Source: Macrosoma leucophasiata (lineage: Eukaryota; Arthropoda; Insecta; Lepidoptera; Hedylidae). Taken from it: a stretch of DNA of 64,000 bases. Of the stretch, positions 7,629 through 42,560 are shown piece by piece. The DNA is taken from assembly GCA_036365455.1 (NCBI GenBank), contig JAWQUS010000032.1:11133501-11197500 (forward strand), read 5' to 3'. Within the stretch, counting starts at the first letter, position 1. Each line of letters opens with the position of its first letter. Both the position numbers and the translations under genes were made by a program. Under the pieces are notes generated by a model, which made no database searches, was not told where the DNA came from, and worked only from the letters and a program-made list of their open reading frames with translations.

Positions 7629-7819
7629 TAGCGGCCCGCCCCGGCTTCGCCCGCGCTGCTCTGCTCCTATTAGTCATAGCGTAATCTAAGCTATCCTATC
7701 TCTCAAGTTGGATCGAATTGCACATGGTGTGCGAATTTTATTATAATCGGTTAAGTGGTTTAGGAGTCCATTGAGGACAAACATTGTGACACGAGATTTA
7801 TATATATTAAGATAGATAG
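7629..7819 (+). repeat. Retroelement 3'-tail repeat G, interrupted by the RTE LINE
   Basis: Starts CTAGCGGCCCGCCCCGGCTT and continues to TAAGATAGATAG, which is the 5' target duplication of the RTE LINE. The repeat resumes after 11024. Non-coding. Confidence 0.65.
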
Positions 7820-10800: not shown

Positions 10801-11012
10801 GTTGCAGAGGCCCAGGAAGACCAAGGCTGACCTACCATGACCAAATAGGTCGAGTTCTGTCTGATGGTGGGGTCAAAAGTCTTAGGAATCGGCGTGCATG
10901 TATGAAGAGAATGATGAAGGTAGACGAGGCACGAGAGGTTTGTCAGAACCGGGATGTCTGGCGCTCTACACTCTCTGCCTACCCCGTTAGGGACCTGGCG
11001 TGAAGATACATA
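7820..11012 (+). mobile_element. Full-length RTE-clade LINE
   Basis: Bounded by a perfect 12-bp direct repeat TAAGATAGATAG (7808-7819 and 11013-11024) and ending GAAGATACATA, a short non-poly(A) tail as is usual in RTE elements. The 5' leader is GC-rich and structured: GTACCGAC (7931-7938) pairs perfectly with 7947-7954, and TGCCAGAA (7828-7835) with 7876-7883. It has one long open frame with no stops. Length 3.19 kb is that of a complete RTE element. A truncated sibling lies at 4660-5043. Confidence 0.93.
7899..11003 (+). CDS. RTE LINE endonuclease-reverse transcriptase
   Basis: Polyprotein that nicks target DNA and copies its own RNA there. The N-terminal half is an APE-like endonuclease: it opens with IGTWNVRG (about residue 47), carries CGDLNGWVG and ends with the TDHYLV motif. 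The reverse transcriptase follows: KCGKAAGIDQVSAEM, then the first catalytic Asp in GFVDLEKAFDR near residue 659, VKQGCVLS, and YADD near residue 758. The C-terminus has the RTE-type tail with LRWFGHIERMSNER. The frame is uninterrupted over 1034 codons. The first ATG lies after the endonuclease start motif, and the listed start is a GTG, so the true initiation site is not resolved. Coding capacity looks intact. Confidence 0.9.
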   Translation: MRVRASPRGDAYRPVPVGTKSGQSGDGDRHLSRRARYGGSRSGECQIGTWNVRGGICEKMNELTNVMSVRRLDVLCVTETKRKGCEVEDLPGGAMALWAGVQQSDHASAGVGVLLSSRLVTGVKDYGLVNPRLIWVRIKLGVTRVFLVAAYAPVSSATTQDLEKFWESTREVLDMVEANERVILCGDLNGWVGTRRPGYEAVLGPYGDRRVNDAGKLILDVCLERSLLVSNTEFRHKDIHTYTWRRNEQKSMIDLIMVDSRLRKSLMDTRAYRGPTLDTDHYLVISRFRGLFKKWRHWRVRVPFGGLERIKSEKLQDISARRVYERQVREKLDKVCLTDLDVDECWQVMKDSMVEVAKEVCGYAKIRKSLKGDAWWDKEVQDSVERKKKAWLDYVASLQMNNGMRDEKREIYRRLKNDTKILVNEKRERNKVEADERLAKSFETNIKLYWREVKKSRSSSPVSGMNRIKSKLGDILENTQDVLKRWSEYYGEMYDYAHNPDAGVADLTVPACEDITIDEIVRAIRSLKCGKAAGIDQVSAEMIKYGGAALWDSFWVLCNLCWRSGRIPKDWRCAVIVPLYKGKGSRMDCTSYRAISLISLAAKVYGKVLERRMKEKSDGLLWDAQGGFRTGRGCMDQVFSLRNIVEKHLAVSQKVFCGFVDLEKAFDRVLRKELWDILPEYGIDGSLLRAIQSTYVGCQACVRVDGNMSPWFDVNIGVKQGCVLSSRLFIIYLDKCLQRVKLMDVGVRMGDLVVNCLLYADDAVIVSSTPSGLQALVTVMKEDCMEKGLHLNVDKTKVLVFERDEQRTNARVVVDDAVLEQVDEIVYLGCAFSKDGRYTTDIERRVLAGNCVNGALGKLLESKHLSQRARLAVHNAVLTPTLLYGSESWVCRKEHESKLNAVEMRSLRKICGVSLTDRVRNEDVRKRLCVNDSIGVKMKKGMLRWFGHIERMSNERMTKQIYNANVDGCRGPGRPRLTYHDQIGRVLSDGGVKSLRNRRACMKRMMKVDEAREVCQNRDVWRSTLSAYPVRDLA

Positions 11013-12809: not shown

Positions 12810-13010
12810 CCTCGCGCGGGTGCTATGTTACCTATCCTCTCCTGTTCATCTTATCGTGATGTTATATATCCTAAAAACTTCTTCAATAAATGGGCTATCT
12901 AACATTGAAAAAAATTTTCTAATCGGACCAGAAGTTCCTGAGATTAGCGCGTTCAAGCAAACAAACAAACTCTTCAGCTTTATAATATTAGTACAGATAA
13001 ATGCAAAAAA
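12810..13010 (+). repeat. Retroelement 3'-tail repeat H, copy 1
   Basis: Contains CTCTCCTGTTCATCTTATCG, ATAAATGGGCTATCTAACA, GAGATTAGCGCGTTCAAGCA and ends CAGCTTTATAATATTAGTAC. Two further copies: 14503-14554 plus 30876-31040 (split by the giant foldback) and 42358-42560. Confidence 0.75.
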
Positions 13011-14502: not shown

Positions 14503-14554
14503 GGCTCGCCCCGGCTTTGCGCGATTGTAATGTTACCTCTCCTGTTCATCTCAG
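14503..14554 (+). repeat. Repeat H, copy 2, left part (foldback insertion site)
   Basis: Starts CGGCTCGCCCCGGCTTTGCG and ends TCATCTCAG, the 9-bp duplication (14546-14554). The repeat resumes after 30884, so removing 14555-30875 plus one duplicate restores a normal copy of repeat H. Confidence 0.85.
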
Positions 14555-15441
14555 AGGTCCATCAAGGTAGCATGGGAAAATTAGCAAAAATCAATTAAAA
14601 AATCTTCAAAATTAGTAGCTGATTTGTTGCTAATTAGTTACCAAAATGCCAATTTTGTTGCTCCAGCGGATTACGAAATATCGCGATTAGTGCTAGCATT
14701 ATATAAAGTGAGCATGAAAAGTGGAAAAAAGAGATGGAAGGAATTCGAATTGTACGTTATAATTTGTTGCTAATTAATTGCTAACAGATAATAAAATCGA
14801 AAAAATGAAAAAAAAATTTTTTGACTAACTTTTGAAATTTAATCAAAATAAAAAAATTGTGCTATCTTGATACCCGACTATCTACCACTTGATGAGAGTC
14901 CTGAATTTGTTGCTAAAGGGAATATATGTGTAGCAAATGGAAGGAACTAGCAACAAAATAGTTTCGCAAAATTTGATCGATTTTCCATTCCATAGTAATT
15001 TTCCATCTACATGCTGTCTTGAAACCAGTATATCTACCACTTATTAGGAGTCTGGAATTTGTTGCTGTACTAAATGTCGTTCATAGTAACCGTAGGAGTG
15101 AGAAACAAAATAGTTTCGCAAAATTTGATCGATTTTCCATTCCATAGTAATTTTCCATCTACATGCTGTCTTGAAACCAGTATATCTACCACTTATTAGG
15201 AGTCTGGAATTTGTTGCTGTACTAAATGTCGTTCATAGTAACCGTAAGAGTGAGAAACAAAATAGTTACGCATAATTTCATCAATTTTCCATTTCACAAT
15301 AATTTTCTTTCTACATGCTATCTTGAAACCGGTAATTCCTACCACTTATTAGGAGTCTGGAATTTGTTGCTGTACTAAATGTTGTTCATAGTAACCGTAG
15401 GAGTGAGAAACAAAATAGTTACGCAAAATTTGATCGATTTT
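14555..15441 (+). repeat. Foldback left arm, terminal module and first array part
   Basis: 14555-14870 is the terminal module; a diverged first unit starts near 14865, then 152-bp units follow with CTACCACTT at 15034, 15186 and 15339. The word TTTGTTGCT occurs at 14623, 14654, 14763 and 14906 and once in each unit. The array is cut at 15441 by the CR1/L2-type LINE. Confidence 0.85.
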
Positions 15442-15658
15442 ATTTATTTATTTATTTATTTATTCTTTTGTGCACAAATTGATGTACATAAGGCGTGCTT
15501 AATACCTAGTGGTATTCTCTACCAGCCAACCTTAGGGCTAAATGAATCTGTCGAAAAGGTGCATTAAACTATTGATGAAAAATTGAATAGAAAAAGAAGA
15601 AATTATTAAGAGGATAATAATATTAAGTACATATTTAGTAACATTAATATATATATTA

Positions 15659-16933
15659 GGTTGGGGAAAAAGTTTCTTCGTATTTTTTAAGATAATTCAA
15701 AACATTTTTTAATATAGTTTATTTAAATTTAACTAAAGTATGTATGTACCATTTTGTTCGATAACCTTTTGCCATCTTGTAGGTAGGGACATGATCCCAT
15801 TGCTATAAAAATTTTGGGACTTCTCATCAAAATACCGCGACAAGTGGATTTGGCAGTCCTCTCGTGATGTTAACCTAACATTGCATAAAGAATTCTGAAG
15901 AAACCGAAACAGGTGGAAATCTGAAGGTGCAAGGTCAGGACTATACGGCGGATGCATTAACACCTCCCAGCCAAACTCTCTTAATTTTTGCTGAGTGGCT
16001 ATAGATGTGTGAGGTCTAGCGCTATCATGATGAAACACCACACCCCTTCTGTTGATCAATTCCGGCCGCTTTCTCTCAACTTCTTGCTTTAATCTCATCA
16101 GTTGTTCGCAGCAGAGTTCAGAATCGATAGTCCTGCCTGGTGGTAATAGCTCATAATGAATAATGCCCTTCTAATCCCACTACACACACAACATCACCTT
16201 ATTGCGAGTTAACCCGGGTTTCGCCACAGTCTGTGAAGCCTGACCGGCCTTTGACCACGACCTTTTTCGCACGTTCTTGTACGTGATCCATTTTTCATCA
16301 CCAGTTATCAGCTTCTTCAAAAATGATTCGATTTCATTACGTCGTAATAAAGAATCACAAATGAGTACACGGTTCATTAGGTTTCTTTCAGTGAGCTCGT
16401 GAGGTACCCAAATATCGAGTTTTTTTTTGTACCCAGCTTTTTTCAAATGCGCCAAAACTGTTTTGTGATCAATTCTCAGTTCTTCAGCTACGTCGTAACT
16501 ACTGATATGTCGATCTTGCTCCACTTTTTCAAAAATGGCATCCATTTTATTCGAAATAGGGCGACCAGAGCGAGGTGCATCTTTGACATCAAAATTTCCG
16601 GATTGAAAACGCTTAAACCTAATTTGTGCTACTCTCACAGACACTGCACTAGGTCCATAAACATCGCAATTTTTTTTTGCGGCTTGCGTTGCATTTTACC
16701 TTTTTTGTAGTAAAATTTTAAAATGTATCGAATTTCTTCATTAGATTCACTCATCTTGACAGTACGAAAAACAAATGAAAATCACACATTTGCCAAATTT
16801 GAATTTGGAATTATGTTCTTTAAAATTGTAACTTTCAATAATACCAAAACCAGCCAGATACAAATACTACAGCCAAAGAGATTTTATTACAAGTTCATTT
16901 ATACTATAATGCGAAAAGACTTTTTCCCCAACC
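15659..16933 (-). mobile_element. Mariner element, copy 1 (inactivated)
   Basis: Ends GGTTGGGGAAAAAG and CTTTTTCCCCAACC flanked by TA on both sides, within TA-rich DNA of the LINE 3' UTR. Complete in length but the transposase is broken. Confidence 0.9.
15733..16700 (-). pseudogene. Mariner transposase pseudogene
   Basis: Two frame blocks (16644-16180 and 16098-15733) align with the intact transposase at 40103-41131. Two Trp codons in the WWDWKG region have become stops (near 16171-16180), and an A-run near 16670 shifts the frame in the N-terminal part. The second and third catalytic Asp remain readable (HHDSARPH, with Asn changed to Ser, and DLAPSDFHLF). Not functional. Confidence 0.9.

Positions 16934-16968
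<35 letters not shown>
16934..16968. repeat. TA microsatellite
   Basis: About 15 TA units directly beside the mariner end, in the LINE 3' UTR. Confidence 0.9.
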
Positions 16969-16970
<2 letters not shown>

Positions 16971-17091
16971 TATAATACATAAGTAATATCGATATTACAT
17001 ACGAATATAGTACGAAATACATATAAATAAATAAATATTATATATTTAAAAAGTAACGTTATAATATATGATAAGTAGTGATGATTAAATT

Positions 17092-20022
17092 TTACACACG
17101 ATTTGGATCCACAGAGGCCAAAAAATGTTTTTTTAGCCTGCATTTGAAAGAGAATTTACTAGGAGATTTCTTGATGTCTAAGGGAAGCGCGTTCCAGAGT
17201 TTAATTGCCTTAACACAAAAAGAATTAGAGTAAAAACCTGTACGGTGAGAAGGAATTTGAAATATTAGATTTTCAGCGGAGCGAAGATTGAAGGAATGTA
17301 AATCACCGAGGATTTGGAAATTGCATCTGAGATAAGTGGGTGCACAAGGATCGGTAAGAATAGAAAAAAGCAAGCAGAGTATCCGAATGGATCTCCTTTC
17401 GCAAATAGGCAGCCACTGCAGCTGAGAACGGAAGTGTGAAATATGGTCGAATTTACGTAAACCGAAAATATAACGTATACAGTTATTCAGAATCCGATCC
17501 ATTTTGTTGAGAAGATCTTGTGAAGCATCAGAGCAGCAAACATCTGCATAGTCAATAATAGGTAATACAAGTGATTGGACTAAAAGAGTTTTAGTGCTAG
17601 TTGGTAGGAAATGTTTAAATCGATAGAGGGTCCGCAGTACACTAATCACTCGTTGATTTATTTGGCAGACATAATTCTTCCAACTTAACGTGTTATCAAT
17701 AATTAAACCTAAATCCTTAACGTGAGAAGATAAAGTTATTACACTGTTATTAAAAATAATCGGAGTTACAACATTATTGGTTAAGCTATTGATGTAGTAT
17801 GAACTGCCTAAAATGATCGCCTGACATTTCGTAACATTGACATTAACACCAAATTTCTCTGACCATAGAGAAATTGCTTCAAGATCAGCATTTAACAAAG
17901 AAATAGCATCATTAATGTTCTCTAAACTAGCTTGGAAATAGAGCTGCAAGTCATCCGCGTACAAATGATAAGAGCATTTGAGATTTTTTAAGACAGTGTT
18001 GACAAAAAGTGAGAATAAAAGTGGTGAGAGAATACCGCCTTGCGGGACGCCAGAAGTCAAGCAGCACCAGTCAGATAAATTATTATTGACCTTGACCGCC
18101 TGCTGACGACCGCGAAGATACGAAGAAAACCAGCTCAGTTCAACTGACGAGACTCCACCATTCGAAAGAATGTCACAAAGAATATCGTGGTCAACAGCGT
18201 TAAAAGCGTTAGAGAAATCAAGTAAGACTAACACTGTCAACTTCGAATTCTCCATGCCCAACCGGACGTCTTCTGTAATTTTTAAGAGCGCAGTCGATGT
18301 ACTGTGTCCCTTTCTAAACCCCGATTGAAATTCAGATATTAAGCTATTTTTTACTACAAAGTTTGATAGTTGTCTGTGAACTAATCCTTCTAAAACTTTA
18401 GAAGTGAAAGGAAGAATAGATATGGGTCTATAATGGTTTGCTAAACTTGGGTTCGTTGTTTTAGAAAGAGGGATAATATAAGCTTTACGCCAGACAGTAG
18501 GAAATGTCCCAGTTTGCAGTGAGAAGTTAAAAATATGGGTTAGGGCTGGAAGAATACTATCAATAATAAGAAAAATCATCTTACGGCTCACTCCATCACA
18601 TCCGACAGCGTTGGATTTAATAGCGTGAGCACATTTTAATACGTCTTCGTCAGTGACAGAGGCAAATGTAAATAAATTTGGGGGTAACGGCGTGGAAGAT
18701 AAATGAAATGAAGTTGGAGAGGTAGCAGAAACGTTAGAAGATGACATTGAAGCGAAATAGTTATTAAGTTCGTTCAGGGAAAGAGATGAGGATCTGATAT
18801 CATATTTAGATTTGCTTAAACCCAAAGAACATAGAAATTTCCACATGTCAGCCGAAGAAGAATTTTTAATATTATCGTGGATATATCGGCGTTTTGATAC
18901 TCTTATCATATTGTTACACCGATTTCTTGCTAGCTTGTACAAGTTCCAATTGTCAATGTTTCGATTCCTTCTAAATTTACGAAATGCTCTATCTCGTCGA
19001 GCCATAGCCATGCGGATAATTCTAGTCATCCAGGGAGCTGGAGGACGCTTGATACGAACAGATCTAATAGGAGCGTGAGAGTTAAAAAGATTCAGTACCT
19101 TATCACTTAATAATGTTAATTTATCATCAACTGTAGAGGCAGTCAAAAAATCCGTCCAGTTCATATTCTGTGCATCTGCTTTGAGACTAGCAACATCCAA
19201 ACGAGCGTAATTTCTTAAATGTACAATAGCTGGACGTGATTTAGGTGTTCTCATTTTGTAGCAAATGTAAATCAGGTCGTGTCGCGAGAAACTAGGGGCA
19301 GCGACTTGTCCATGATGCATAACTAAGTCCTTTGACGAAGAAAAAATTAGGTCTAGCCAAGTATCATCCGAATCAATATTCAAATGTGTAGCCTCGAGTG
19401 GAAGTAACGATATATGGGTTGATTCAAGGATTAACCTCAATCTTTCTGAACGTGGAGAGACCCTAAGCATATCTGTGTTAAAATCACCCATTACTATGAG
19501 ATGGTTGTACTCTGAGGCTAATGTTTCAAGCTGAGCTTCCAGAGTGGAAAAGTAATTGATAGCAGGAGGGCAATAAACAACACCCAGTACGGCTTTGCAC
19601 CCATTCACTGATATTTCAATGAACAAAAATTCCGGATTACTGTCATAAAGCGAGGGTGTAGATGCAATAATTTTATAAGTGATGTCGCTCCGAAGATAGA
19701 TAGCGACGCCCCCGCCTCTAGCCCCGGTACGATCGTTCCGAATAAGAACAAAATTAGGCAGACCAAAAGCAGTAGATGTAAGTGAGGGTTTGAGCCAGGT
19801 CTCCGAAACTAAAATAGCATGCAAAGAAATATCAGTGAATGCATCAAGAAACTCCGAGTGATGCTGTGGAACACTTTGTGCGTTTATGTGACACACATTT
19901 AGATGCTCAGACTGTGAAAAAATATTGTGTAATCTACTATTCAAAGAAAAAGAATCATCACACGACGAAAGAGATAGCGAAGAATTATCACACGCAGAGT
20001 AAAAAGAATCATCATCCGACAT
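17092..20022 (-). CDS. LINE ORF2: endonuclease and reverse transcriptase (CR1/L2 type)
   Basis: 976-codon frame with no stops. An APE-type endonuclease comes first (LNVCHINAQSV, VSETWLKP, GGGVAIYL, VMGDFNTDML, and the SRHDLI form of the catalytic His motif). A linker with APWMTRIIRMAMARRDRAF follows, then the RT: YRPISILPFTSKVLE, FQSGFRKGHSTSTAL, LLDFSNAFNAVDHDIL, GVPQGGILSPLLFSLF and YADD near residue 687. The C-terminus has LRKFDHISHFRSQLQWLP and RLWNALPLDI-like words (KLWNALPLDI), shared with the remnant at 35.0 kb. The ATG start precedes the endonuclease by about 40 codons. Clade assignment rests on motif style. Coding capacity looks intact. Confidence 0.9.
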   Translation of the reverse strand: MSDDDSFYSACDNSSLSLSSCDDSFSLNSRLHNIFSQSEHLNVCHINAQSVPQHHSEFLDAFTDISLHAILVSETWLKPSLTSTAFGLPNFVLIRNDRTGARGGGVAIYLRSDITYKIIASTPSLYDSNPEFLFIEISVNGCKAVLGVVYCPPAINYFSTLEAQLETLASEYNHLIVMGDFNTDMLRVSPRSERLRLILESTHISLLPLEATHLNIDSDDTWLDLIFSSSKDLVMHHGQVAAPSFSRHDLIYICYKMRTPKSRPAIVHLRNYARLDVASLKADAQNMNWTDFLTASTVDDKLTLLSDKVLNLFNSHAPIRSVRIKRPPAPWMTRIIRMAMARRDRAFRKFRRNRNIDNWNLYKLARNRCNNMIRVSKRRYIHDNIKNSSSADMWKFLCSLGLSKSKYDIRSSSLSLNELNNYFASMSSSNVSATSPTSFHLSSTPLPPNLFTFASVTDEDVLKCAHAIKSNAVGCDGVSRKMIFLIIDSILPALTHIFNFSLQTGTFPTVWRKAYIIPLSKTTNPSLANHYRPISILPFTSKVLEGLVHRQLSNFVVKNSLISEFQSGFRKGHSTSTALLKITEDVRLGMENSKLTVLVLLDFSNAFNAVDHDILCDILSNGGVSSVELSWFSSYLRGRQQAVKVNNNLSDWCCLTSGVPQGGILSPLLFSLFVNTVLKNLKCSYHLYADDLQLYFQASLENINDAISLLNADLEAISLWSEKFGVNVNVTKCQAIILGSSYYINSLTNNVVTPIIFNNSVITLSSHVKDLGLIIDNTLSWKNYVCQINQRVISVLRTLYRFKHFLPTSTKTLLVQSLVLPIIDYADVCCSDASQDLLNKMDRILNNCIRYIFGLRKFDHISHFRSQLQWLPICERRSIRILCLLFSILTDPCAPTYLRCNFQILGDLHSFNLRSAENLIFQIPSHRTGFYSNSFCVKAIKLWNALPLDIKKSPSKFSFKCRLKKHFLASVDPNRV

Positions 20023-20666
20023 AATATAGATTTATATAAAAATAAATATATAAAAATAGATATACAATAAATAAAAATATAATTATATATACCTTAAAAA
20101 AAAATAAGTAAGTAGTCTATAAATCGACAGTCACTTATCCTGCCAATCGACCGTTTACAGATATTGATATTATACAAAAACAAAGCTTACAAAGTCACCG
20201 TCACATAAAACTAAACAACACATCAAATACGCATACATTAATAACAAAAACAATATTTAGGCGATAACGTATTAAGGAATTCAAAGTTGCATTATTTTAT
20301 GTTAATCCATAACGACTTAAGTTATCTACTACAATTAACAAAGAAAAAAAAAAAATAGTTTCAGAACGAAACCAAGTGACAGTTATGTCAACCTGACAAC
20401 ATGCAAAAATTATAAGGTTATGACAGGTGACTTGTAAAGTGTAAACAATAAATAGCACAGCAAAATTATTAAAAAATACGATGGTAGATGAATTTTATGG
20501 AAGACAACGCTATCTTTAACGAGTTATCAACACTTGAACAAAAAGGGTCGCTATTAACCAAGTGTGTACATGAGTGACAAACAAAACGAAAAATACATTC
20601 ACGACATTGATTGTTAACGAAACGCGGGATGATAACAGTAACGAAACGACACAACAACACAATCAC
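20023..20666 (-). other. LINE inter-ORF region
   Basis: 644 bp between ORF1 and ORF2 of the LINE, AT-rich, with no open frame of note. Longer than the short spacers often seen in two-ORF LINEs. Confidence 0.6.
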
Positions 20667-21449
20667 TTATTTCTTGACAATGCGTTTGGATCTGGAAGGC
20701 AAAGGAAGCACCTCCTTTGGTGGAGTGGGTTGCGGCTTGTTCCGAGTGCTTGAAGATTTCACAACAGCCTCCACGGGCGGTCTGCCATGCTTAGCCGTCA
20801 GTGCTGCGAGATCTTCTTGCCACAATATACGGCTACGCTTGCCATCCGGGAGTCTTACGTAAACGCTGCAGTCCAAAGTCCATACCTTAGTGACGCCAAA
20901 ATGTTTCTTAGCAGCTGTAAAAATGGCTTGACGCTGACGGGTCAGGAACTCCGACAGTACATAAGGGGAGCCTTTCAATTTGGTTTTATTGTTCCAGACA
21001 GTGCATTTGATATTGGGATCATTAAAGCGCAGTAAAATGGGCCTAGTACGTTCATCACTTTTTAAGCCCAATCTATGACAAGAAGTCAGAACTGTTGAAT
21101 TCAGCTCAGTTAAGCCTAGCTGTTTATGCATAATAGCGATAGTGGTGTCTGCAGTATTCTCATCTGTCATCTCCGGTACCCCATTGAGTAATAGAAACTT
21201 GCGCCTATGTCGAGTCTCAATTATATCCACGCTCCGGCTCAGATCAATAATTTGCTGATGGAGTAGACTAAAGACACTTCTCACGTGCTCCTTAAAGTCA
21301 GCAAAGTCTCGAGACAATACACATAAATCGGTACCTGTGGTTGATGTTGAGGTAGCCTGGAGATGAGACTCAAAGTCAGCCATACGCTGACTGAGGGACA
21401 ATAATGCTGTTCTCTGGACCTCTGCGATGTCTTGGATGGTAGATGTCAT
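20667..21449 (-). CDS. LINE ORF1: L1-type RNA-binding protein
   Basis: 260 codons from the ATG at 21449-21447; the open frame goes 30 codons further up without an ATG, so this start was chosen. The N-terminus is heptad-rich (RMADFESHL, VLSRDFADFKEHVRSVFSLLHQQIIDL), consistent with a coiled coil. Next comes an L1-ORF1-like RRM part (KFLLLNGVPE, SCHRLGLKSDERTRPILLRF) and a C-terminal part (LSEFLTRQRQAIFTAAKKHF, VWTLDCSVYV). The end is Pro/Lys/Ser-rich and basic. Such proteins coat LINE RNA and act as chaperones. No zinc knuckle seen. Confidence 0.8.
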   Translation of the reverse strand: MTSTIQDIAEVQRTALLSLSQRMADFESHLQATSTSTTGTDLCVLSRDFADFKEHVRSVFSLLHQQIIDLSRSVDIIETRHRRKFLLLNGVPEMTDENTADTTIAIMHKQLGLTELNSTVLTSCHRLGLKSDERTRPILLRFNDPNIKCTVWNNKTKLKGSPYVLSEFLTRQRQAIFTAAKKHFGVTKVWTLDCSVYVRLPDGKRSRILWQEDLAALTAKHGRPPVEAVVKSSSTRNKPQPTPPKEVLPLPSRSKRIVKK

Positions 21450-21712
21450 TATAGTGGTAGCAAAAACAGTGAACAACAACAAACAACAGTGATGTGTTTC
21501 AGTGTTGACAGGTCGATGGCAGGTTGGTGCAATATACAACTTCTAAATCATTTAATAACTTGCTGTCTTCTTATTATATAATCAATTGAAGTGTAAATAA
21601 GATATGTAAGTACTTTTGGTCAACTTAAACTTAATTAATTATTATTTATGAATATAATATACGTAGAATACATGTGCATTACTTTTTGCACCTACCCGAA
21701 AAAAAAGATTTT

Positions 21713-22595
21713 CCATTCCATAGTAATTTTCCATCTACATGCTGTCTTGAAACCAGTATATCTACCACTTATTAAGAGTCTGGAATTTGTTGCTGTACTA
21801 AATGTTGTTCATAGTAACCGTAAGAGTGAGAAACAAAATAGTTACGCAAAATTTGATCGATTTTCCATTCCATAGTAATTTTCTCTCTACATGCTGTCTT
21901 GAAACCAGTATATCTACCACTTATTAGGAGTCTGGAATTTGTTGCTGTACTAAATGTTGTTCATAGTAACCGTAAGAGTGAGAAACAAAATAGTTACGGA
22001 AAATTTGATCGATTTTCCATTCCATAGTAATTTTCTCTCTACATGCTGTCTTGAAACCAGTATATCTACCACTTATTAGGAGTCTGGAATTTGTTGCTGT
22101 ACTAAATGTTGTTCATAGTAACCGTAGGAGTGAGAAACAAAATAGTTACGCAAAATTTGATCGATTTTCCATTCCATAGTAATTTTCCATCTACATGCTG
22201 TCTTGAAACCAGTATATCTACCACTTATTAAGAGTCTGGAATTTGTTGCTGTACTAAATGTTGTTCATAGTAACCGTAAGAGTGAGAAACAAAATAGTTA
22301 CGCAAAATTTGATCGATTTTCCATTCCATAGTAATTTTCTCTCTACATGCTGTCTTGAAACCAGTATATCTACCACTTATTAGGAGTCTGGAATTTGTTG
22401 CTGTCCTAAATGTTGTTCATAGTAACCGTAGGAGTGAGAAACAAAATAGTTACGCAAAATTTTATCAATTTTCCATTTCACAATAATTTTCTTTCTACAT
22501 GCTGTCTTGAAACCAGTATATCTCTACATGCTGTCTTGAAACCAGTATATCTACCTTTTATTAGGAGTCTGGAATTTGTTGCTGTACTAAATGTT
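21713..22595 (+). repeat. Foldback left arm, inner 152-bp array
   Basis: About six units in + orientation, each with AGTCTGGAATTTGTTGCTGT, ATAGTAACCGTA and GAAACAAAATAG. Units differ by a few bases; the last one is partly duplicated around 22500-22560. Confidence 0.9.
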
Positions 22596-22753
22596 GTTCA
22601 TTTATTATGTACACATATATATTAATAATGAATAATTTATAAATTTCATATAAAATTTTGTTCATTACGTATCGATTATGTGTACGATTTTCATTACTTA
22701 TAGTTACTACACACTCTGTCCTTCAAGTAAGTTCTAGTAGGTAAACAGGTAGT
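22596..22753 (+). repeat. Foldback left arm, inner unique module
   Basis: Inverted copy of 24446-24604 with no mismatch noticed. Ends GTAGGTAAACAGGTAGT at the palindrome breakpoint. Confidence 0.9.
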
Positions 22754-23018
22754 CCCCCCCGAGGGTTTCCGCCTTGTCGTGGCGGGGGGGCTCAGTAGCC
22801 GGTGGTTGGCCTCAAATCAAATCAAAAATGCTTTATTCATTTTTAAACGGTATTACAAGTAACATCGCAAGGGCCCCCATACTGGGTTAAGAAACCTGTA
22901 TTACAGGGTACCCCGCTCATCCACCAGGGAAATTAAAGCTATACATATATTGTATTTATCTAAAAGGATTACAGCATTTTGATTAGCATAATAGCAAAAT
23001 AACTTAAATAAGGTTTTG

Positions 23019-23101
<83 letters not shown>

Positions 23102-24445
23102 CCTCACACCGGAGAAGCCAAGAGGAACCCAGAGAGGGGGCGGCGTTTGGCGTGGCTCTGCCCGCCACTCGCTGCTGTGGTGAGGAGACGGCTGACTGAT
23201 TTGATCGACATTCGCGTCATTCGATAAGGTTCAGCGAAACTTAGACTTCCTCATAAATTTAAAAAGACTTTTTGCTTTTAACACCTTTTAAGCAGATGTA
23301 ACGATCAATTCCAGAATCTAATCAGCTCTTTAATTTGAAAACTACGTTGATTGCTGCAAACCGCATCAAAATCGGTGATGTGTTGAAAAGAGATCATACA
23401 CTAACTGTTTCAAAAAAGTTTCTTTATCAAATAAGATCGAATTATTCTCGGATTATTTTTGATGTCATAATTTAACTATCAATGCTCAGAAAACTGAGTC
23501 AGAGGCCGCCTATTTCTTCAAAATCATTCGGTACGCTTGTGAGATATTTAATTTAAAAAGTAAGATCTCCCGGCCAACAAGATTATTCAGTTTGAAAAAA
23601 TTTTCCTGAATCCCTAAGCCAAGAAAGAGATTGCAAAAAAATTACGAATCTTTTTTTTCGTGCTATTACTTTGAATTGCATAAGAAACTATGAGTCTGAA
23701 AAATTTTTCACCAGGAGATCCAAAAATTAGAATTTTCTCAAGAGAACTCTTTTTTTATCTTGATATTATTTTTACTCTAGCGAAACCTGTCAAAAATTAC
23801 TACAAACTTTTAAATTTTTTTTTTGCCAGCTCAATTTTTGTTAGGAGTATATTGCTTTAACTAACAATGTCAATTTTTTGGTAGATTTGTTCCTATCTCT
23901 AGGTTCTTTCGTAGATTATCGATAAGAAAATGTTATTTTTTTAACGATATTTCATTTTCAGATGATGAAATTTTTTTTTTCACTTTTTCAGGGGGTACCC
24001 CATTTTGCCCCCAAAAAAAAAATTTTTTTTTCTACGGCAACTTGAAATTTGATTATTTTTCTTCAATTACGACTGAAAACGAGAAAAATCAGCGTATTTA
24101 AGTCCTTAAATTCATAACGATTTCTTAAGTACCCCATTTTGCCCCTCCCTCCCCTATAACCATATATGATCATATATAAAGTTCCTCATATATGAACATG
24201 TAAAAAACTGGCCTTATATAATCTGATATGACTATATAAGATCATATATGATGAGCTGTGACCATACCCGAGTAAAAAAGATTTTATATAATTAGATACA
24301 ATTATGTATAGATTATATATAATTATATAAAAAAAATGGCCCGATAAAATTGGATAGAAATTATATATAATTATATCCATAGAAATAAAAATATCTGGCG
24401 TGGGCAGGGATCGAACCTGGGACCTGACGCTTGGAAGACTGTTTC
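22754..24445. other. Foldback centre: LINE-tail fragment, GT run and AT-rich DNA
   Basis: Non-palindromic spacer. 22810-23020 looks like an antisense LINE 3' end (AAATCAAATCAAAAATGCTTTA). 23026-23098 is a long GT microsatellite. 23100-23200 has a GC-rich scrap (GGCGTGGCTCTGCCCGCC) shared in reverse with 52980-53030. 23200-24160 is AT-rich without genes; 24160-24390 is dense in ATATAATTATAT words. No transposase frame was found. Confidence 0.65.
23026..23098. repeat. GT microsatellite
   Basis: About 36 uninterrupted GT units. Confidence 0.95.
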
Positions 24446-24475
24446 ACTACCTGTTTACCTACTAGAACTTACTTG
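24397..24475 (-). repeat. tRNA-Gly-like module across the palindrome breakpoint
   Basis: On the minus strand: TAGGTAAACAGG (A-box-like), CAGTCTTCCAAGCG (resembling a tRNA-Gly(TCC) anticodon arm), GGTTCGATCCC (B box), ending GCCCACGCCA. The first third belongs to the palindromic arm and the rest to the centre. Either a SINE head or a tRNA pseudogene; a real tRNA is doubtful. Confidence 0.55.
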
Positions 24476-24604
24476 AAGGACAGAGTGTGTAGTAACTATA
24501 AGTAATGAAAATCGTACACATAATCGATACGTAATGAACAAAATTTTATATGAAATTTATAAATTATTCATTATTAATATATATGTGTACATAATAAATG
24601 AACA
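24446..24604 (-). repeat. Foldback right arm, inner unique module
   Basis: Reverse complement of 22596-22753. Confidence 0.9.
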
Positions 24605-26306
24605 ATATTTAGTACAGCAACAAATTCCAGACTCCTAATAAAAGGTAGATATACTGGTTTCAAGACAGCATGTAGAAAGAAAATTATTGTGAAATGGAAA
24701 ATTGATAAAATTTTGCGTAACTATTTTGTTTCTCACTCCTACGGTTACTATGAACAACATTTAGGACAGCAACAAATTCCAGACTCCTAATAAGTGGTTT
24801 CAAGACAGCATGTAGATGGAAAATTACTATGGAATGGAAAATCGATCAAATTTTGCGTAACTATTTTGTTTCTCACTCTTACGGTTACTATGAACAACAT
24901 TTAGTACAGCAACAAATTCCAGACTCTTAATAAGTGGTAGATATACTGGTTTCAAGACAGCATGTAGATGGAAAATTACTATGGAATGGAAAATCGATCA
25001 AATTTTTCGTAACTATTTTGTTTCTCACTCCTACGGTTACTATGAACAACATTTAGGACAGCAACAAATTCCATACTCCTAATAAGTGGTAGATATACTG
25101 GTTTCAAGACAGCATGTAGATGGAAAATTACTATGGAATGGAAAATCGATCAAATTTTGCGAAACTATTTTGTTTCTCACTCCTACGGTTACTATGAACG
25201 ACATTTAGTACAGCAACAAATTCCAGACTCATGTAGACAAGACAGCATGTAGATGGAAAATTACTATGGAAGGGAAAATCGATCAAATTTTGCGAAACTA
25301 TTTTGTTTCTCACTCCTACGGTTACTATGAACAACATTTAGTACAGCAACAAATTCCAGACTCCTAATAAGTGGTAGATATACTGGTTTCAAGACAGCAT
25401 GTAGAGAGAAAATTATTGTGAAATGGAAAATCGATCAAATTTTGCGTAACTATTTTGTTTCTCACTCTTACGGTTACTATGAACAACATTTAGGACAGCA
25501 ACAAATTCCAGACTCTTAATAAGTGGTAGATATACTGGTTTCAAGACAGCATGTAGATGGAAAATTACTATGGAATGGAAAATCGATCAAATTTTGCGTA
25601 ACTATTTTGTTTCTCACTCCTACGGTTACTATGAACAACATTTAGTACAGCAACAAATTCCAGACTCCTAATAAGTGGTAGGAATTACCGGTTTCAAGAT
25701 AGCATGTAGAAAGAAAATTATTGTGAAATGGAAAATTGATGAAATTATGCGTAACTATTTTGTTTCTCACTCTTACGGTTACTATGAACGACATTTAGTA
25801 CAGCAACAAATTCCAGACTCCTAATAAGTGGTAGATATACTGGTTTCAAGACAGCATGTAGATGGAAAATTACTATGGAATGGAAAATCGATCAAATTTT
25901 GCGTAACTATTTTGTTTCTCACTCCTACGGTTACTATGAACAACATTTAGGACAGCAACAAATTCCATACTCCTAATAAGTGGTAGATATACTGGTTTCA
26001 AGACAGCATGTAGATGGAAAATTACTATGGAATGGAAAATCGACCAAATTTTGCGAAACTATTTTGTTTCTCACTCCTACGGTTACTATGAACGACATTT
26101 AGTACAGCAACAAATTCCAGACTCCTAATAAGTGGTAGATATACTGGTTTCAAGACAGCATGTAGATGGAAAATTACTATGGAATGGAAAATCGATCAAA
26201 TTTTGCGAAACTATTTTGTTTCTCACTCCTACGGTTACTATGAACAACATTTAGTACAGCAACAAATTCTAGACTCCTAATAAGTGGTAGATATACTGGT
26301 TTCAAG
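24605..26306 (-). repeat. Foldback right arm, inner 152-bp array
   Basis: About eleven inverted units, one shortened near 24790 and one near 25230 with a deletion. A variant unit (GGAATTACCGGTTTCAAGAT) occurs at 25681. The array ends in the target duplication ACTGGTTTCAAG of the right-arm LINE. Confidence 0.9.
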
Positions 26307-29300
26307 GAAGGAGGCAAGGCAAGGAAGGAGCCTCCACGAGCGACGAATATTGCGAAACGTACAGCACGTAAACATGCATAAGCGTCCGGCGCACCCTGGA
26401 CACGCTGCTCCAAGCTCGGCTCAAAGAAGTCGATATTGGAGTGACGTGACTAATCCTTCCGCCACAATGGCCCAAAACAGCTCTTTTCAGAGCCAAAACG
26501 GTTCTTTTCTGAGCCATTACAATAAACCTACTTTACAGGTGGTTTCTATAAATATTGAAGGTTTTTCTAGCATTAAAGCATCCATTCTTGAAAGTTTGTG
26601 CCATGATACTCAGTGTGATGTCCTCTGTCTTCAAGAGACGCATAGAGGCCAACTACAGCAGAGACCGGCAATTAATGGAATGACACTAGTAGCAGAGACT
26701 CCCCACGAAAAGTATGGCAGCGCAGTATTTACAAAGCCTACCCTACCCGTAAAGTCTACATCGTGTACTACAAATAACAATATTGAGATTCTCACTATTA
26801 ACATCGGCAACTGCACAATAACCTCAGTATATAAACCACCAAATCAACCTTTTGAATTCACTCCGCCACAAAACTTTAACGATCAACCAGTAAAAATAGT
26901 AGTAGAAGACTTCAATAGCCATAACACTATATGGGGCTATAACACCACGAATTCCGATGGGGATGCGGTTGAGGAGTGGGCGGACGCGAATCGACTGGTT
27001 CTTATACATGATGCCAAATTGCCCGCATCCTTTAACAGTGCAAGATGGAATCGTGGTTATAACCCTGACTTGCTTTTTGTCAGTGAAAACATCAGTGCAT
27101 TGAGTAAAAAAAGTATCGAACGACCCATTCCTCGGAGTCAACATAGACCAATTAGCTGCAGAGTCTATGCGGCCGTGAAACCAACGATTATTCCGTTCCG
27201 ACGCAGGTTTAATTTTAAAAAAGCTGATTGGGAGAGCTTTTCGAAAGGAGTTGATTCGTGTTTACTAAATCTAGAACCTGTCCATGAAAATTACGACCAG
27301 TTTGTTAAAACCATCCAACTGATATCACGTCGGACAATACCTCGTGGCTGCCGTACAACATATATCCCAGGACTAAATGAAAACTGTTCCAACCTCCTGT
27401 CAGCCTACGAAACTGAATACGAAAAAGACCCCTTTTCAACTAATACACTGGCGCTTGGCGAGGATCTAATGAAGAAAATAGGTGAAAGTCGTCTTGAGAC
27501 ATGGATGGATCTCGTGGCCAGCGTTGATTTGACGCACAATAGCAAAAAGGCGTGGAGCACCATTAGAAAACTCACTGACGACCCTCCCATTGCAACCAGT
27601 CCAGGCCCAGTAACTGCCAACCAAGTAGCATATCAACTATTACAAAACGGAAAGCCTCCCCATCGCCTAAAAAAGCCAGTAAAATGCTCTTCAAACCATG
27701 AGAATTCTGACCTGATAAGTAGAAGTTTCACTCTGCCAGAAATTCAAAAGGGCATTATGGATTTGAAGAAAGGTAAGGCAGCGGGCATAGATGACCTTAC
27801 GACGGACCAACTTAAGCATTTTGGCCCTGTGGCGGTCTCTTGGCTTTTGGCTCTTTTTAATAACTGCCTAGAATCGCTTAAATTCCCAAAGCAATGGAGA
27901 AAGTCGGAAGTCATGGCCATATTAAAACCCGGTAAATGCCCTAAGGATCCAAAAAGTTACCGCCCCATTTCACTTCTTTGCCACACATACAAACTCTTCG
28001 AAAGACTTCTCCTCAATCGTCTCACAACAGTTCTAGAACCTAATATTATCCCTCAACAGGCTGGCTTCCGTCCTGGTAAATCATGCACCAACCAAACTTT
28101 AAGTCTCACTCAGTATATTGAGGATGGTTTTGAAGAGAGAAAAATTACCGGTGTCGTTTTTGTCGATTTGTCCGCGGCCTATGACACAGTCAATATTAAA
28201 CGTCTACTTGTCAAAGTCCATCAGCTAACTAAGGACCTAGGTTTAGTCGGCATCCTCCGTGAAGTCTTGAACAATAGAAGATTCCGAGTGCACTTAAATC
28301 ACACCAAAAGTCGATGGAGATGTCAGAAGAATGGTCTCCCGCAAGGAAGTGTCCTCGCTCCAGCGCTTTTTAATATCTACACAAATGACCAGCCCATTAT
28401 ACCCAATACGCGACACTTCCTCTATGCTGATGATCTTGCGCTAGCTGCTCAGACAACTAGTTTTGAGGAGGCTGAAAAAAACTTGACGGTTGCGCTGGAG
28501 GCACTCGATGTGTATTATGATGAGAATGCCCTAAGGCCGAATCCAGCTAAAACCCAGACATGTGTGTACCACCTGCGCAACCGTGAAGCTAATCGGGTTC
28601 TTAAATTGTCATGGCGAGGAGTTAAGATCGAGCACTGCAGTAAACCGCGCTATTTGGGGGTCACACTAGACAGATCGCTGAACTTTAAACCACACTGTCA
28701 CGGTATAAAAAAGAAAGTGAGAGCGCGAAACAATCTTTTAAAGCGTCTTATCTCGACATCTTGGGGAGCATCCCCGAATGTACTAAGATCGTCAGGCCTT
28801 GCCCTTTGCTTCTCTACAGGTGAATATGCATGTCCAGTGTGGCATCGCTCGGCCCATGCTGGAGAGGTAAATGTCGCATTGAATGAAACCTGCAGAATTA
28901 TGACCGGATGCTTAAAACCAACACCGCTAGATAAACTCTATCCCCTAGCCGGTGTTGCTCCGCCAGAAATTCGCCGACAGGTAGCCTGCGAGATTGAGAA
29001 ACGCCATCAGGAGAGCGATAATCGTCACCCATTGTTTGGCTGCGTTAAAGCGCAAGCGCGTTTGAAAAGTCGCAAAAGTTTCTTAGGCTGCACTAAACCA
29101 ATTGTAGGTTTTCCAAATGAGGTGAAGAAGCGACTTTGGAACCAAAAATATCCAGTCCCTTCCGATTTCATATCGCCCTCGGAAAATATTCCGCCAGGTT
29201 CTGAGCTGCAGTGGCCTATTTGGCGTACGCTAAATCGGTTACGTTCCGGAGTGGGCTGCTGCAGATCCAATATGTCCAAATGGGGCTTTTCTTCTAGACC

Positions 29301-29488
29301 TGAATGTGACTGCGGTGCTCCGATACAAGACATGACGCATCTTCTTTCCTGCCCATTGTGCCCTAATAGCTGCACAAGCAAAGACTTGATGAAGGCAACG
29401 GACTCGGCTATTGCGTTGTCATGTTTTTTATCAGGATCAATATAACACATAAAGTAATAAAATTGGCCATTGACACGAGAAGAAGAAG
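26307..29488 (+). mobile_element. Full-length single-ORF LINE inside the right foldback arm
   Basis: Flanked by a perfect 12-bp repeat ACTGGTTTCAAG (26295-26306 and 29489-29500), which is part of the 152-bp unit. The 3' tail is AGAAGAAGA. Length 3.18 kb with one long frame, so probably complete. No counterpart at the mirror position of the left arm. Confidence 0.92.
26374..29445 (+). CDS. Single-ORF LINE endonuclease-reverse transcriptase
   Basis: 1023 codons from ATG 26374; the open frame extends upstream into the target repeat, so that part was left out. An alternative ATG is 26467. The N-terminal endonuclease has LQVVSINIEGF, CLQETHRG and VVEDFNSHNTIWG (Glu where Gly is usual), and SQHRPI instead of the usual SDH motif, near residue 255. 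The RT has KKGKAAGIDDLTTDQLKHF, SYRPISLLCHTYKLFER, QAGFRPGKSCTNQ, FVDLSAAYDTVN (about residue 596), LPQGSVLAPALFNIY and YADD (about residue 683). The C-terminus has a Cys/His cluster (CDCGAPIQDMTHLLSCPLC). Clade uncertain (jockey/Daphne-like). Frame intact. Confidence 0.88.
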   Translation: MHKRPAHPGHAAPSSAQRSRYWSDVTNPSATMAQNSSFQSQNGSFLSHYNKPTLQVVSINIEGFSSIKASILESLCHDTQCDVLCLQETHRGQLQQRPAINGMTLVAETPHEKYGSAVFTKPTLPVKSTSCTTNNNIEILTINIGNCTITSVYKPPNQPFEFTPPQNFNDQPVKIVVEDFNSHNTIWGYNTTNSDGDAVEEWADANRLVLIHDAKLPASFNSARWNRGYNPDLLFVSENISALSKKSIERPIPRSQHRPISCRVYAAVKPTIIPFRRRFNFKKADWESFSKGVDSCLLNLEPVHENYDQFVKTIQLISRRTIPRGCRTTYIPGLNENCSNLLSAYETEYEKDPFSTNTLALGEDLMKKIGESRLETWMDLVASVDLTHNSKKAWSTIRKLTDDPPIATSPGPVTANQVAYQLLQNGKPPHRLKKPVKCSSNHENSDLISRSFTLPEIQKGIMDLKKGKAAGIDDLTTDQLKHFGPVAVSWLLALFNNCLESLKFPKQWRKSEVMAILKPGKCPKDPKSYRPISLLCHTYKLFERLLLNRLTTVLEPNIIPQQAGFRPGKSCTNQTLSLTQYIEDGFEERKITGVVFVDLSAAYDTVNIKRLLVKVHQLTKDLGLVGILREVLNNRRFRVHLNHTKSRWRCQKNGLPQGSVLAPALFNIYTNDQPIIPNTRHFLYADDLALAAQTTSFEEAEKNLTVALEALDVYYDENALRPNPAKTQTCVYHLRNREANRVLKLSWRGVKIEHCSKPRYLGVTLDRSLNFKPHCHGIKKKVRARNNLLKRLISTSWGASPNVLRSSGLALCFSTGEYACPVWHRSAHAGEVNVALNETCRIMTGCLKPTPLDKLYPLAGVAPPEIRRQVACEIEKRHQESDNRHPLFGCVKAQARLKSRKSFLGCTKPIVGFPNEVKKRLWNQKYPVPSDFISPSENIPPGSELQWPIWRTLNRLRSGVGCCRSNMSKWGFSSRPECDCGAPIQDMTHLLSCPLCPNSCTSKDLMKATDSAIALSCFLSGSI

Positions 29489-29500
29489 ACTGGTTTCAAG

Positions 29501-30875
29501 ACAGCATGTAGAGAGAAAATTATTGTGAAATGGAAAATCGATCAAATTTTGCGTAACTATTTTGTTTCTCACTCCTACGGTTACTATGAACAACATTTAG
29601 TACAGCAACAAATTCCAGACTCCTAATAACTGGTAGAATTACCGGTTTCAAGATAGCATGTAGAAAGAAAATTATTGTGAAATGGAAAATTGATGAAATT
29701 ATGCGTAACTATTTTGTTTCTCACTCTTACGGTTACTATGAACGACATTTAGTACAGCAACAAATTCCAGACTCCTAATAAGTGGTAGATATACTGGTTT
29801 CAAGACAGCATGTAGATGGAAAATTACTATGGAATGGAAAATCGATCAAATTTTGCGTAACTATTTTGTTTCTCACTCCTACGGTTACTATGAACAACAT
29901 TTAGTACAGCAACAAATTCCAGACTCCTAATAAGTGGTAGATATACTGGTTTCAAGACAGCATGTAGATGGAAAATTACTACGGAATGGAAAATCGATCA
30001 AATTTTGCGTAACTATTTTGTTTCTCACTCCTACGGTTACTATGAACGACATTTAGTACAGCAACAAATTCCAGACTCCTAATAAGTGGTAGATATACTG
30101 GTTTCAAGACAGCATGTAGATGGAAAATTACTATGGAATGGAAAATCGATCAAATTTTGCGAAACTATTTTGTTTCTCACTCCTACGGTTACTATTAACG
30201 ACATTTAGTACAGCAACAAATTCCAGACTCCTAATAAGTGGTAGAATTACCGGTTTCAAGATAGCATGTAGAAAGAAAATTATTGTGAAATGGAAAATTG
30301 ATGAAATTATGCGTAACTATTTTGTTTCTCACTCTTACGGTTACTATGAACGACATTTAGTACAGCAACAAATTCCAGACTCCTAATAAGTGGTAGATAT
30401 ACTGGTTTCAAGACAGCATGTAGATGGAAAATTACTATGGAATGGAAAATCGATCAAATTTTGCGAAACTATTTTGTTGCTAGTTCCTTCCATTTGCTAC
30501 ACATATATTCCCTTTAGCAACAAATTCAGGACTCTCATCAAGTGGTAGATAGTCGGGTATCAAGATAGCACAATTTTTTTATTTTGATTAAATTTCAAAA
30601 GTTAGTCAAAAAATTTTTTTTTCAATTTTTCGATTTTATCATCTGTTAGCAATTAATTAGCAACAAATTATAACGTACAATTCGAATTCCTTCCATCTCT
30701 TTTTTCCACTTTTCATGCTCACTTTATATAATGCTAGCACTAATCGCGATATTTCGTAATCCGCTGGAGCAACAAAATTGGCATTTTGGTAACTAATTAG
30801 CAACAAATCAGCTACTAATTTTGAAGATTTTTTAATTGATTTTTGCTAATTTTCCCATGCTACCTTGATGGACCT
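29501..30875 (-). repeat. Foldback right arm, outer array and terminal module
   Basis: About six inverted 152-bp units, with variant units at about 29630 and 30240. Then comes the diverged first unit and the terminal module (30520-30875), mirror image of 14555-14910. Confidence 0.9.
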
Positions 30876-31040
30876 TCATCTCAGCATGATGTTGTATAGC
30901 CTAAAGCCTTCCTCGATAAATGGGCTAGTAACACTTAAAGATTTTTTCAAATCGGACCAGTAGTTCCTGAGATTAGCGCGTACAAACAAACAAACAAGCA
31001 AACTCGTCAGCTTTATAATATTATTCGTATAAGTATAAGT
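30876..31040 (+). repeat. Repeat H, copy 2, right part
   Basis: Begins with the duplicated TCATCTCAG and runs on as GATGTTGTATAGCCTAAAGC to the end CAGCTTTATAATATTATTC. Confidence 0.85.
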
Positions 31041-42190: not shown

Positions 42191-42357
42191 AAAAAAACGA
42201 AATATTGTGGAATATTTCCATTTTAGAATGGGTAGAAATTGATGATTGTAAATTGCATCAAATTACCAGTAAAAAACTACATTGCAACCGCGCGAAGCCG
42301 GAGCGGGTCATTTATTGCATAATGATTTATGCATACTCGTATCACAAATATGTAATA

Positions 42358-42560
42358 CTAGCGGTCCGCCCGGCTTCGCGCAGTTGCAATGTTACCTACC
42401 CTCTCCTATTCATGTAAGCGTGATGTTATAGCCTAAAGCCTTCCTCGATAAATGGCCTATCTAACAATGAAATAATTTTTTAAATCGGACTAGTAGTTCC
42501 TGTGTTTAGCGCGTTCAAGCAAACAAACAAACAAACTCTTCAGTTTTATAATATAAGTAA
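42358..42560 (+). repeat. Retroelement 3'-tail repeat H, copy 3
   Basis: ACTAGCGGTCCGCCCGGCTT to CAGTTTTATAATATAAGT. Serves as reference for the empty site of the foldback element. Confidence 0.75.

Follow-up and report, generated by a model that had tools for sequence, protein, structure and literature searches.

The locus described here raises two questions: whether the facing tandem arrays at positions 14555-30875 of the window (the whole 64,000-nucleotide stretch of the Macrosoma leucophasiata assembly that was analyzed) form one mobile element, and which enzyme moved it, the mover of foldback elements being uncertain in several families. A sequence-only reading had proposed a single mobile unit with Drosophila Foldback (FB)-like architecture, inserted in a copy of repeat H and without a transposase of its own, and these points were supported. 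Both termini, read inward from 14555 and from 30875, are AGGTCCATCAAGG, and the left (14555..15011, plus strand) and right (30419..30875, minus strand) terminal domains of 457 bp are identical at 455 positions and differ at two. Flank comparison revealed a perfect 9-bp target site duplication (TSD), TCATCTCAG, at 14546-14554 and 30876-30884. When the flanks were joined, the alignment ran through the junction to two uninterrupted copies of repeat H, at 42357-42554 (83%) and 12836-12990 (84%), which represent the empty site.

The element has the foldback structure of long inverted repeats built from tandem units with a variable middle between them. Units of 152 bp were delimited by TRF at 14952-15441, 21707-22523, 24795-26306, and 29489-30478. 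They make up an outer and an inner left arm on the plus strand (15012..15441 and 21707..22600, with the register kept past a nested LINE) and an inner and an outer right arm on the minus strand (24611..26306 and 29489..30418). Inside the arms lie the left inner inverted domain (22590..22754, plus strand), matched at 99-100% in seven other copies, and its right counterpart (24455..24620, minus strand), whose alignment with the left one covers about 215 bp with one mismatch. The middle, or loop, domain (22755..24454) contains no convincing gene among the window open reading frames and is smaller than in five other copies, where the middle spans 2.1-3.4 kb. Within it, a 286-bp segment containing a (TG)n tract (22815..23100) is a probable further insertion, since it is absent at the equivalent place in copies L031, L033, and L037.

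The claim of a giant 16.3-kb element did not hold, and native giant size was rejected, because later insertions account for 9,465 of the 16,321 bp (58%). These are two nested LINEs, one of them holding a mariner, all foreign to the foldback element. The first LINE (15442..21706, minus strand, TSD GATTTT) carries an EN-RT frame at 17092-20031 and a further frame at 20667-21542, and encloses the mariner (15657..16940, minus strand, limits approximate) with a broken transposase. The second LINE (26307..29488, plus strand, TSD ACTGGTTTCAAG) has an EN-RT frame. The interior open frames belong to nested elements, and the mariner and the two reverse transcriptases were rejected as the element's own transposase. 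Once the insertions are subtracted, about 6,856 bp remain, and five two-ended relatives free of these inserts measure 6.4-9.9 kb.

The same end domain was found at at least nine loci in the assembly. Six copies besides that in the window are two-ended, and the predicted 9-bp duplications were perfect in 7/7 two-ended copies and different in every one. Domain order was identical in five of the six other two-ended loci. The exception lies on C15, a 14.9-kb composite in which additional end pieces occur internally and nothing matched the inner inverted domain. A partial end comprising terminal bases 1-181 was located at C26:2223681-2223861, where neither a second end nor a clear duplication was found, and the terminal 21-mer had no exact match in viral contigs. 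End divergence is 0.6% inside a copy and 1.2% from copy to copy, by which activity of the family looks recent.

No transposase gene was found in the two-ended copies, for which the frames of the L031 and L033 middles were read. The transposase-bearing relative for which a search had been suggested was found in part: a transposase-like gene adjoins such an end in the 3644-3664 kb region of C8, and the second end is missing. The catalytic piece of this NOF-like gene, with one match in the whole genome, lies inside a single-ended family copy, where the gene pieces are on the minus strand with their 3' side facing a 152-bp arm and the terminal domain. A last-exon-like piece lies inside a second single-ended copy, on C31. 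The second end was not found at C8 or at C31 (19.9 kb read), and a complete autonomous element was thus not found; elsewhere on C8 there was no exact end, and a 20-mer with three mismatches occurred 11 Mb away.

NOF is the protein of Drosophila FB-NOF. Homologues carry the NOF name, a Drosophila elegans homologue showing 38% and 44% over parts, and full-length NOF-like relatives include a 1107-aa Photinus protein. The matches listed in the protein searches (120 of 146 in one of them) did not include D. melanogaster NOF. The C8 piece at 7516-7956 of L036 had no match among six compared proteins, and a PDB profile search by sequence gave three weak matches and nothing meaningful. The model of a relative protein (mean pLDDT 62) had the IS256-family (Mutator-like) transposase ISCth4 as its best structural match, which points to a Mutator/IS256-like DDE core. 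The candidate NOF-type transposase also seems to have a ubiquitin-peptidase-like domain. Set against the PHD-type zinc finger expected of a Rehavkus/NOF-type transposase, the only finger detected was Znf_SCAND3 (E 1.4e-5, below the cut-off, on C8; above the cut-off in the relative P0005), and the Pfam MULE domain PF10551 had no match in the C8 pieces at E up to 1.

The window element is best explained as a non-autonomous foldback element derived from a Rehavkus/NOF-type (Mutator-like) DNA transposon, a reading to which we assign a probability of roughly 0.8. The NOF-like protein would be the transposase, binding both the terminal domain and the TTTGTTGC sites that recur along the units, and would then pair the ends, cut, and insert with a 9-bp stagger. 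Palindromic copies would have arisen by loss of the gene and duplication of the 3' minisatellite end in inverted orientation, after which a gene-bearing copy would have moved them in trans. Unit number may have been altered by unequal exchange or slippage, and the LINE and mariner insertions would later have swollen the window copy to 16.3 kb. Counted against this reading are the missing second end of both gene-bearing copies, the lack of a Pfam MULE domain in the catalytic piece, the model's mean pLDDT of 62, and the absence of the inverted motif GCAACAAA from the main-family units.

Alternatively, a Mutator/Phantom-type (PF10551) transposase encoded elsewhere in the genome could have mobilized the foldback, with the NOF-like gene as cargo or neighbor. 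The genome has 14 PF10551 matches, several with inverted repeats, 9-bp duplications fit Mutator, and in nematodes the foldback family Tm1 has a Phantom-type transposase. Tm1 of Meloidogyne has repeat-bearing foldback-like terminal inverted repeats (TIRs) and a 9-bp TSD, and the family comprises MITE-like groups as well as groups that code for a transposase (PMC3169594), but its units are mostly 13-15 bp and its Phantom-like transposase has the Pfam MULE domain. Within 1.5 kb on each side of the 14 loci, however, matches to the foldback end were short and at chance level, among them an exact terminal 9-mer in L053, so these loci were not supported as the transposase source. Inverted repeats at L057, L060, and L064 start with CATTTCGGGGCAGTGG or one base in, 8-bp repeats are present at L060 and L064, and the inverted repeats examined at four other loci have different sequences. 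The NOF-like catalytic piece, by contrast, is inside a foldback copy, another copy contains part of the gene, and we consider the PF10551 explanation improbable.

Still less probable is that the foldback belongs to a different superfamily whose elements share this shape, for instance to the P superfamily, as Galileo does. The foldback shape did arise in several superfamilies, and Drosophila Galileo has long TIRs with tandem repeats, its transposase sites lying within the repeats and some 70 bp in from the end (PMC3688188); the first TTTGTTGC here is 69 bp from the element end. Galileo has a P-superfamily transposase. The gene associated here is NOF-like, and P transposase also appeared in the fold-match list, with a lower Z than ISCth4. 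Misassembly was rejected, as was a chance juxtaposition of unrelated minisatellite arrays: palindromic arrays are hard to assemble, but near-identical ends with different perfect duplications recur at the six other two-ended loci, five with the same domain order, and both nested-LINE junctions were found uninterrupted in other copies (0 mismatches over 90 bp and 1 over 97 bp).

The Rehavkus/NOF-type derivation was compared with known systems by description. Drosophila FB has long inverted arms of tandem units, with repeat units of 10, 20, 31, and 155 bp, and a 9-bp TSD. FB and FB-NOF share with the present family the inverted tandem-unit arms, the 9-bp TSD, and the association with a NOF-type protein, but FB units are organized otherwise and the gene-bearing copies here keep one end only. 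FB-NOF is reportedly non-autonomous and confined to the melanogaster group, which was counted against the preferred reading. By description, Tribolium castaneum Rehavkus-1_TC is the closest published architecture. Rehavkus elements are described as having a 9-bp TSD, TIRs of 26-400 bp, and a minisatellite before the 3' TIR, and Rehavkus-1_TC as a 9.5-kb element with 164-bp tandem units in inverted termini, mostly five and eight monomers (PMC6446971, PMC10218199). The present family likewise has the 9-bp TSD, tandem units in inverted arms, and, in the single-ended C8 copy, a minisatellite 3' of the gene before the terminal domain. It differs in its 152-bp unit (a comparison of descriptions, not sequences) and in two-ended copies without a transposase gene (L031 and L033 middles) that are mostly palindrome, with a middle of 1.7-3.4 kb. 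Tetris of Drosophila virilis is a non-autonomous foldback with ~220-bp tandem units, 8-10 bp TSDs, and outer flanking, tandem-unit, inner, and non-coding middle domains (PMC4079207). Its layout is the same by description, but the unit length differs, and for Tetris no source of transposase was found, whereas there is a candidate here. The family is new and the kind of element already known; no description of the family was among the matches listed in a literature search that did not extend to Repbase and Dfam.

A foldback family and a single NOF-like gene are thus linked within one genome. PMC3688188 called it untested whether Foldback and Phantom elements have binding sites in their tandem repeats. 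Both the mover of foldbacks and the binding role of the repeats can now be tested at the bench: a single enzyme is the candidate, the roughly nine copies have diverged little, a sister family shares the unit period, and a short motif recurs.

The 152-bp units are probable transposase-binding arrays, as far as motif content tells. We propose, tentatively and with more doubt than confidence, that the arms are a transposase-loading array for a NOF-type enzyme recognizing the TTTGTTGC core, and that foldback palindromes form again and again when the 3' binding end of the gene undergoes inverted duplication. TTTGTTGC is present in 135/138 main-family units and, in the left terminal domain, at 14623, 14654, 14763, and 14906, with an inverted site at 14950. 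The inverted motif GCAACAAA occurs in 0/138 main-family units, which therefore do not keep the pairing of motifs that the terminal domain and the sister family show. The sister family has 152/153-bp units and 9-bp duplications, the latter being weaker evidence because offsets were allowed in the search. A core of ~58 bp around TTTGTTGC, with a period of 152-153 bp, survives between the two families, whose units are otherwise unalignable.

Unit numbers vary between arms and between copies. Unit order was compared with the partner arm in L031, L033, L034, L035, and L037, the window copy being left out. The partner ranked first for both arms of L033 and L035, the left arm of L031, and the right arm of L034, second for the right arm of L031 and the left arm of L034, and sixth and fourth for L037. 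A best match to the partner in some copies only was counted against the preferred reading. The unit period of ~150-165 bp may correspond to nucleosome spacing.

The element at 14555-30875 of the window is real and well bounded. Its inward-facing ends and the perfect 9-bp duplication TCATCTCAG flanking it were confirmed where the sequence-only reading had placed them, and the joined flanks aligned across the insertion point to the uninterrupted copies of repeat H at 12836-12990 (12.8 kb) and 42357-42554 (42.4 kb), the empty-site references. Repeat H is dispersed in the host genome, and a CAAACAAAC tract lies close to its end. The two terminal 457-bp ends differed at 2 sites, and the arms contained 4 blocks of 152-bp tandem units. 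The same reading was right in kind, this being a foldback mobile element; its single 16.3-kb unit held as to the kind of element and failed as to native size, since nested inserts make up 58% of the 16,321 bp. A minus-strand LINE (15442-21706), flanked by the duplication GATTTT and itself carrying a broken mariner, and a plus-strand LINE (26307-29488), with a ACTGGTTTCAAG duplication, each interrupted a 152-bp unit, and uninterrupted counterparts of both sites were present elsewhere in the foldback family: L033 matched over 90 bp without a mismatch, and L031 over 97 bp with 1 mismatch. Subtraction of the nested LINEs left a native element of ~6,856 bp. The middle also contains 286 bp with a (TG)n tract, probably another insertion, because copies L031, L033, and L037 lack it at the corresponding place. 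Elsewhere in the window, an unbroken 351-aa mariner-like transposase frame (40076-41131, plus strand) closely resembled the nested broken mariner, as judged by eye.

The genome assembly comprises 616 Mb in 61 contigs, with the window on contig C32, and the overall character of its repeats suggests a lepidopteran. A search of it using a 396-bp end as the query yielded 43 matches, with 40 of 76 candidates scored, among which 16 were whole or nearly whole ends with 98 to 100% identity. These 16 ends were distributed over nine loci: a facing pair was present at seven of them and a single end at the other two, on contigs C31 and C8; contig C26 contained a partial end. A pattern scan of the end allowing up to 3 mismatches agreed with this search, returning 16 exact matches, 1 with one mismatch, and 9 with three, and the reversed pattern used as a control returned 8. 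The further copies with 9-bp duplications envisaged from the sequence alone were found, a perfect duplication flanking 7/7 two-ended copies, window included, with no two duplications alike. The lengths of these copies were 6.4, 8.2, 8.9, 9.4, 9.9, 14.9, and 16.3 kb, the last being the window element. Mean end-domain divergence was 0.57% within copies (two ends compared, 7 copies) and 1.24% between copies (113 pairs), and these low values suggest that the foldback family moved recently. Exchange between copies could also have kept the ends alike. Regarding recent movement, the window element itself is probably recent. The 14.9-kb copy (L039 and L040, C15:986329-1001227) was a composite with extra internal end pieces and nearly 60 unit starts, 29 per direction, and may be a record of unequal exchange or repeated insertion.

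From the end inward, a foldback copy consisted of the 457-bp terminal domain, the 152-bp units, an inner inverted domain, and the middle. Over its final third, the terminal domain was itself a diverged unit (71 to 81% identity). Unit number varied among arms and copies, 140-bp forms and longer spacings were present, and 137 units of exactly 152 bp (14 arms, 8 loci) fell into 12 sequence clusters. The inner inverted domain was detected in the window copy and at 7 further loci and was not found in the C15 copy. The middle, itself partly palindromic, spanned 1.7 to 3.4 kb in six copies, and inspection by eye of the L031 and L033 middles showed open frames of non-coding appearance.

The terminal domain contained 5 occurrences of the motif TTTGTTGC against 0.03 expected, and one copy of a sister family contained 14 against 0.17 expected (both strands counted); these counts were reached by 0/500 shuffles in each case. 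The motif was present in 135/138 main-family units of 152 to 153 bp, in 26/26 units of 140 bp, and 32 to 51 times per copy in six main-family copies (L037 without its last 121 bp), compared to 2 occurrences in the 47.7 kb of window outside the element. A forward and an inverted TTTGTTGC lay 44 bp apart in the terminal domain and the sister copy; this arrangement was absent from the main-family units, where the inverted motif was found in 0/138 units of 152 to 153 bp. The first TTTGTTGC was 69 bp from the end of the element. Galileo has transposase sites at ~70 bp from its end, with others in two of its four repeats (PMC3688188). Judged by sequence, the TTTGTTGC copies are putative transposase-binding sites.

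Weaker end matches, with ~73% identity over terminal positions 23 to 129, represented the separate sister family. Its five two-ended copies examined (L042, L043, L044, L049, and L050) were each ~1.2 to 1.4 kb long with GGTCTAAAAAAATGG ends, and 5/5 had inverted ends of ~250 bp, ~99% alike, together with a terminal direct repeat, 9 or 10 bp long, in a search that allowed offsets. L042 and L043, the two analyzed by TRF, each contained three tandem 152- to 153-bp units, and the best unit alignment between the families covered ~58 bp with 73% identity (one unit against L042). Further sister-family copies were present in the assembly.

The single-ended C8 and C31 copies shared ~2.2 kb with 97% identity, ~1.6 kb of it absent from L031, including a 129-aa open stretch (98% alike) that was weakly UCH-like, below the cut-off (E 0.0023). 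Further minus-strand open stretches followed on C8, and 5/6 C8 pieces were collinear with P0044, a 1107-aa Photinus homologue (residues 1-197, 198-356, 356-736, 741-869, and 1007-1105); the sixth (L036 7516-7956) fits the P0044 gap by position, yet gave no match in the protein comparison. On inspection by eye, a GT-AG intron could connect the last two pieces. The first protein search gave 27 matches, and two profile searches gave 146 homologues (120 of them listed) and 12. Most were nameless, the names among the matches listed being of insects; two, from Eumeta japonica and Lasius niger, were named after the NOF-FB transposable element, one from Chilo suppressalis was named USP domain-containing, and one came from Drosophila elegans. 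The 400-aa catalytic piece had a single match in the whole genome, ~8.8 kb from a foldback end, a closeness with a rough chance of 3 in 10,000 (nine loci, 10-kb reach each side). The family's enzyme is probably identified as the predicted NOF-like protein. The transposase-carrying relative sought after the sequence-only reading was recovered as a transposase-like gene in the single-ended C8 copy, and the assembly yielded no gene-bearing copy with both ends.

Repeat classifiers label the Rehavkus/NOF group MULE-NOF. Published descriptions place Rehavkus elements, very few of which had been identified by 2019, close to MULEs and give as their features a PHD finger, 9-bp duplications, and a minisatellite preceding the 3' TIR; Rehavkus-1_TC of Tribolium measures 9.5 kb, its inverted termini built of 164-bp units (PMC6446971, PMC10218199). 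The C8 copy resembles them in having its minisatellite on the 3' side of the NOF-like gene. These descriptions and the C8 minisatellite position point, short of proof, to a kinship of the window element with Rehavkus/NOF-type transposons, of which it would be a palindromic relative that lacks the gene, with Rehavkus compared by description and gene-bearing copies single-ended. The foldback family is new, of a kind already known.

The genome also contained 14 MULE-domain loci (L051-L064), several with inverted repeats; three had CATTTCGGGGCAGTGG ends in common, with 8-bp repeats at two of the three. A CPEB3-type HDV-like ribozyme (Rfam, 44.9 bits) was located at window 7808-7883 on the plus strand, close to where an open frame of 1079 aa (7764-11003) begins that reads like an endonuclease-reverse transcriptase, an arrangement similar to the 5' ends of some LINEs, where HDV-like ribozymes occur.
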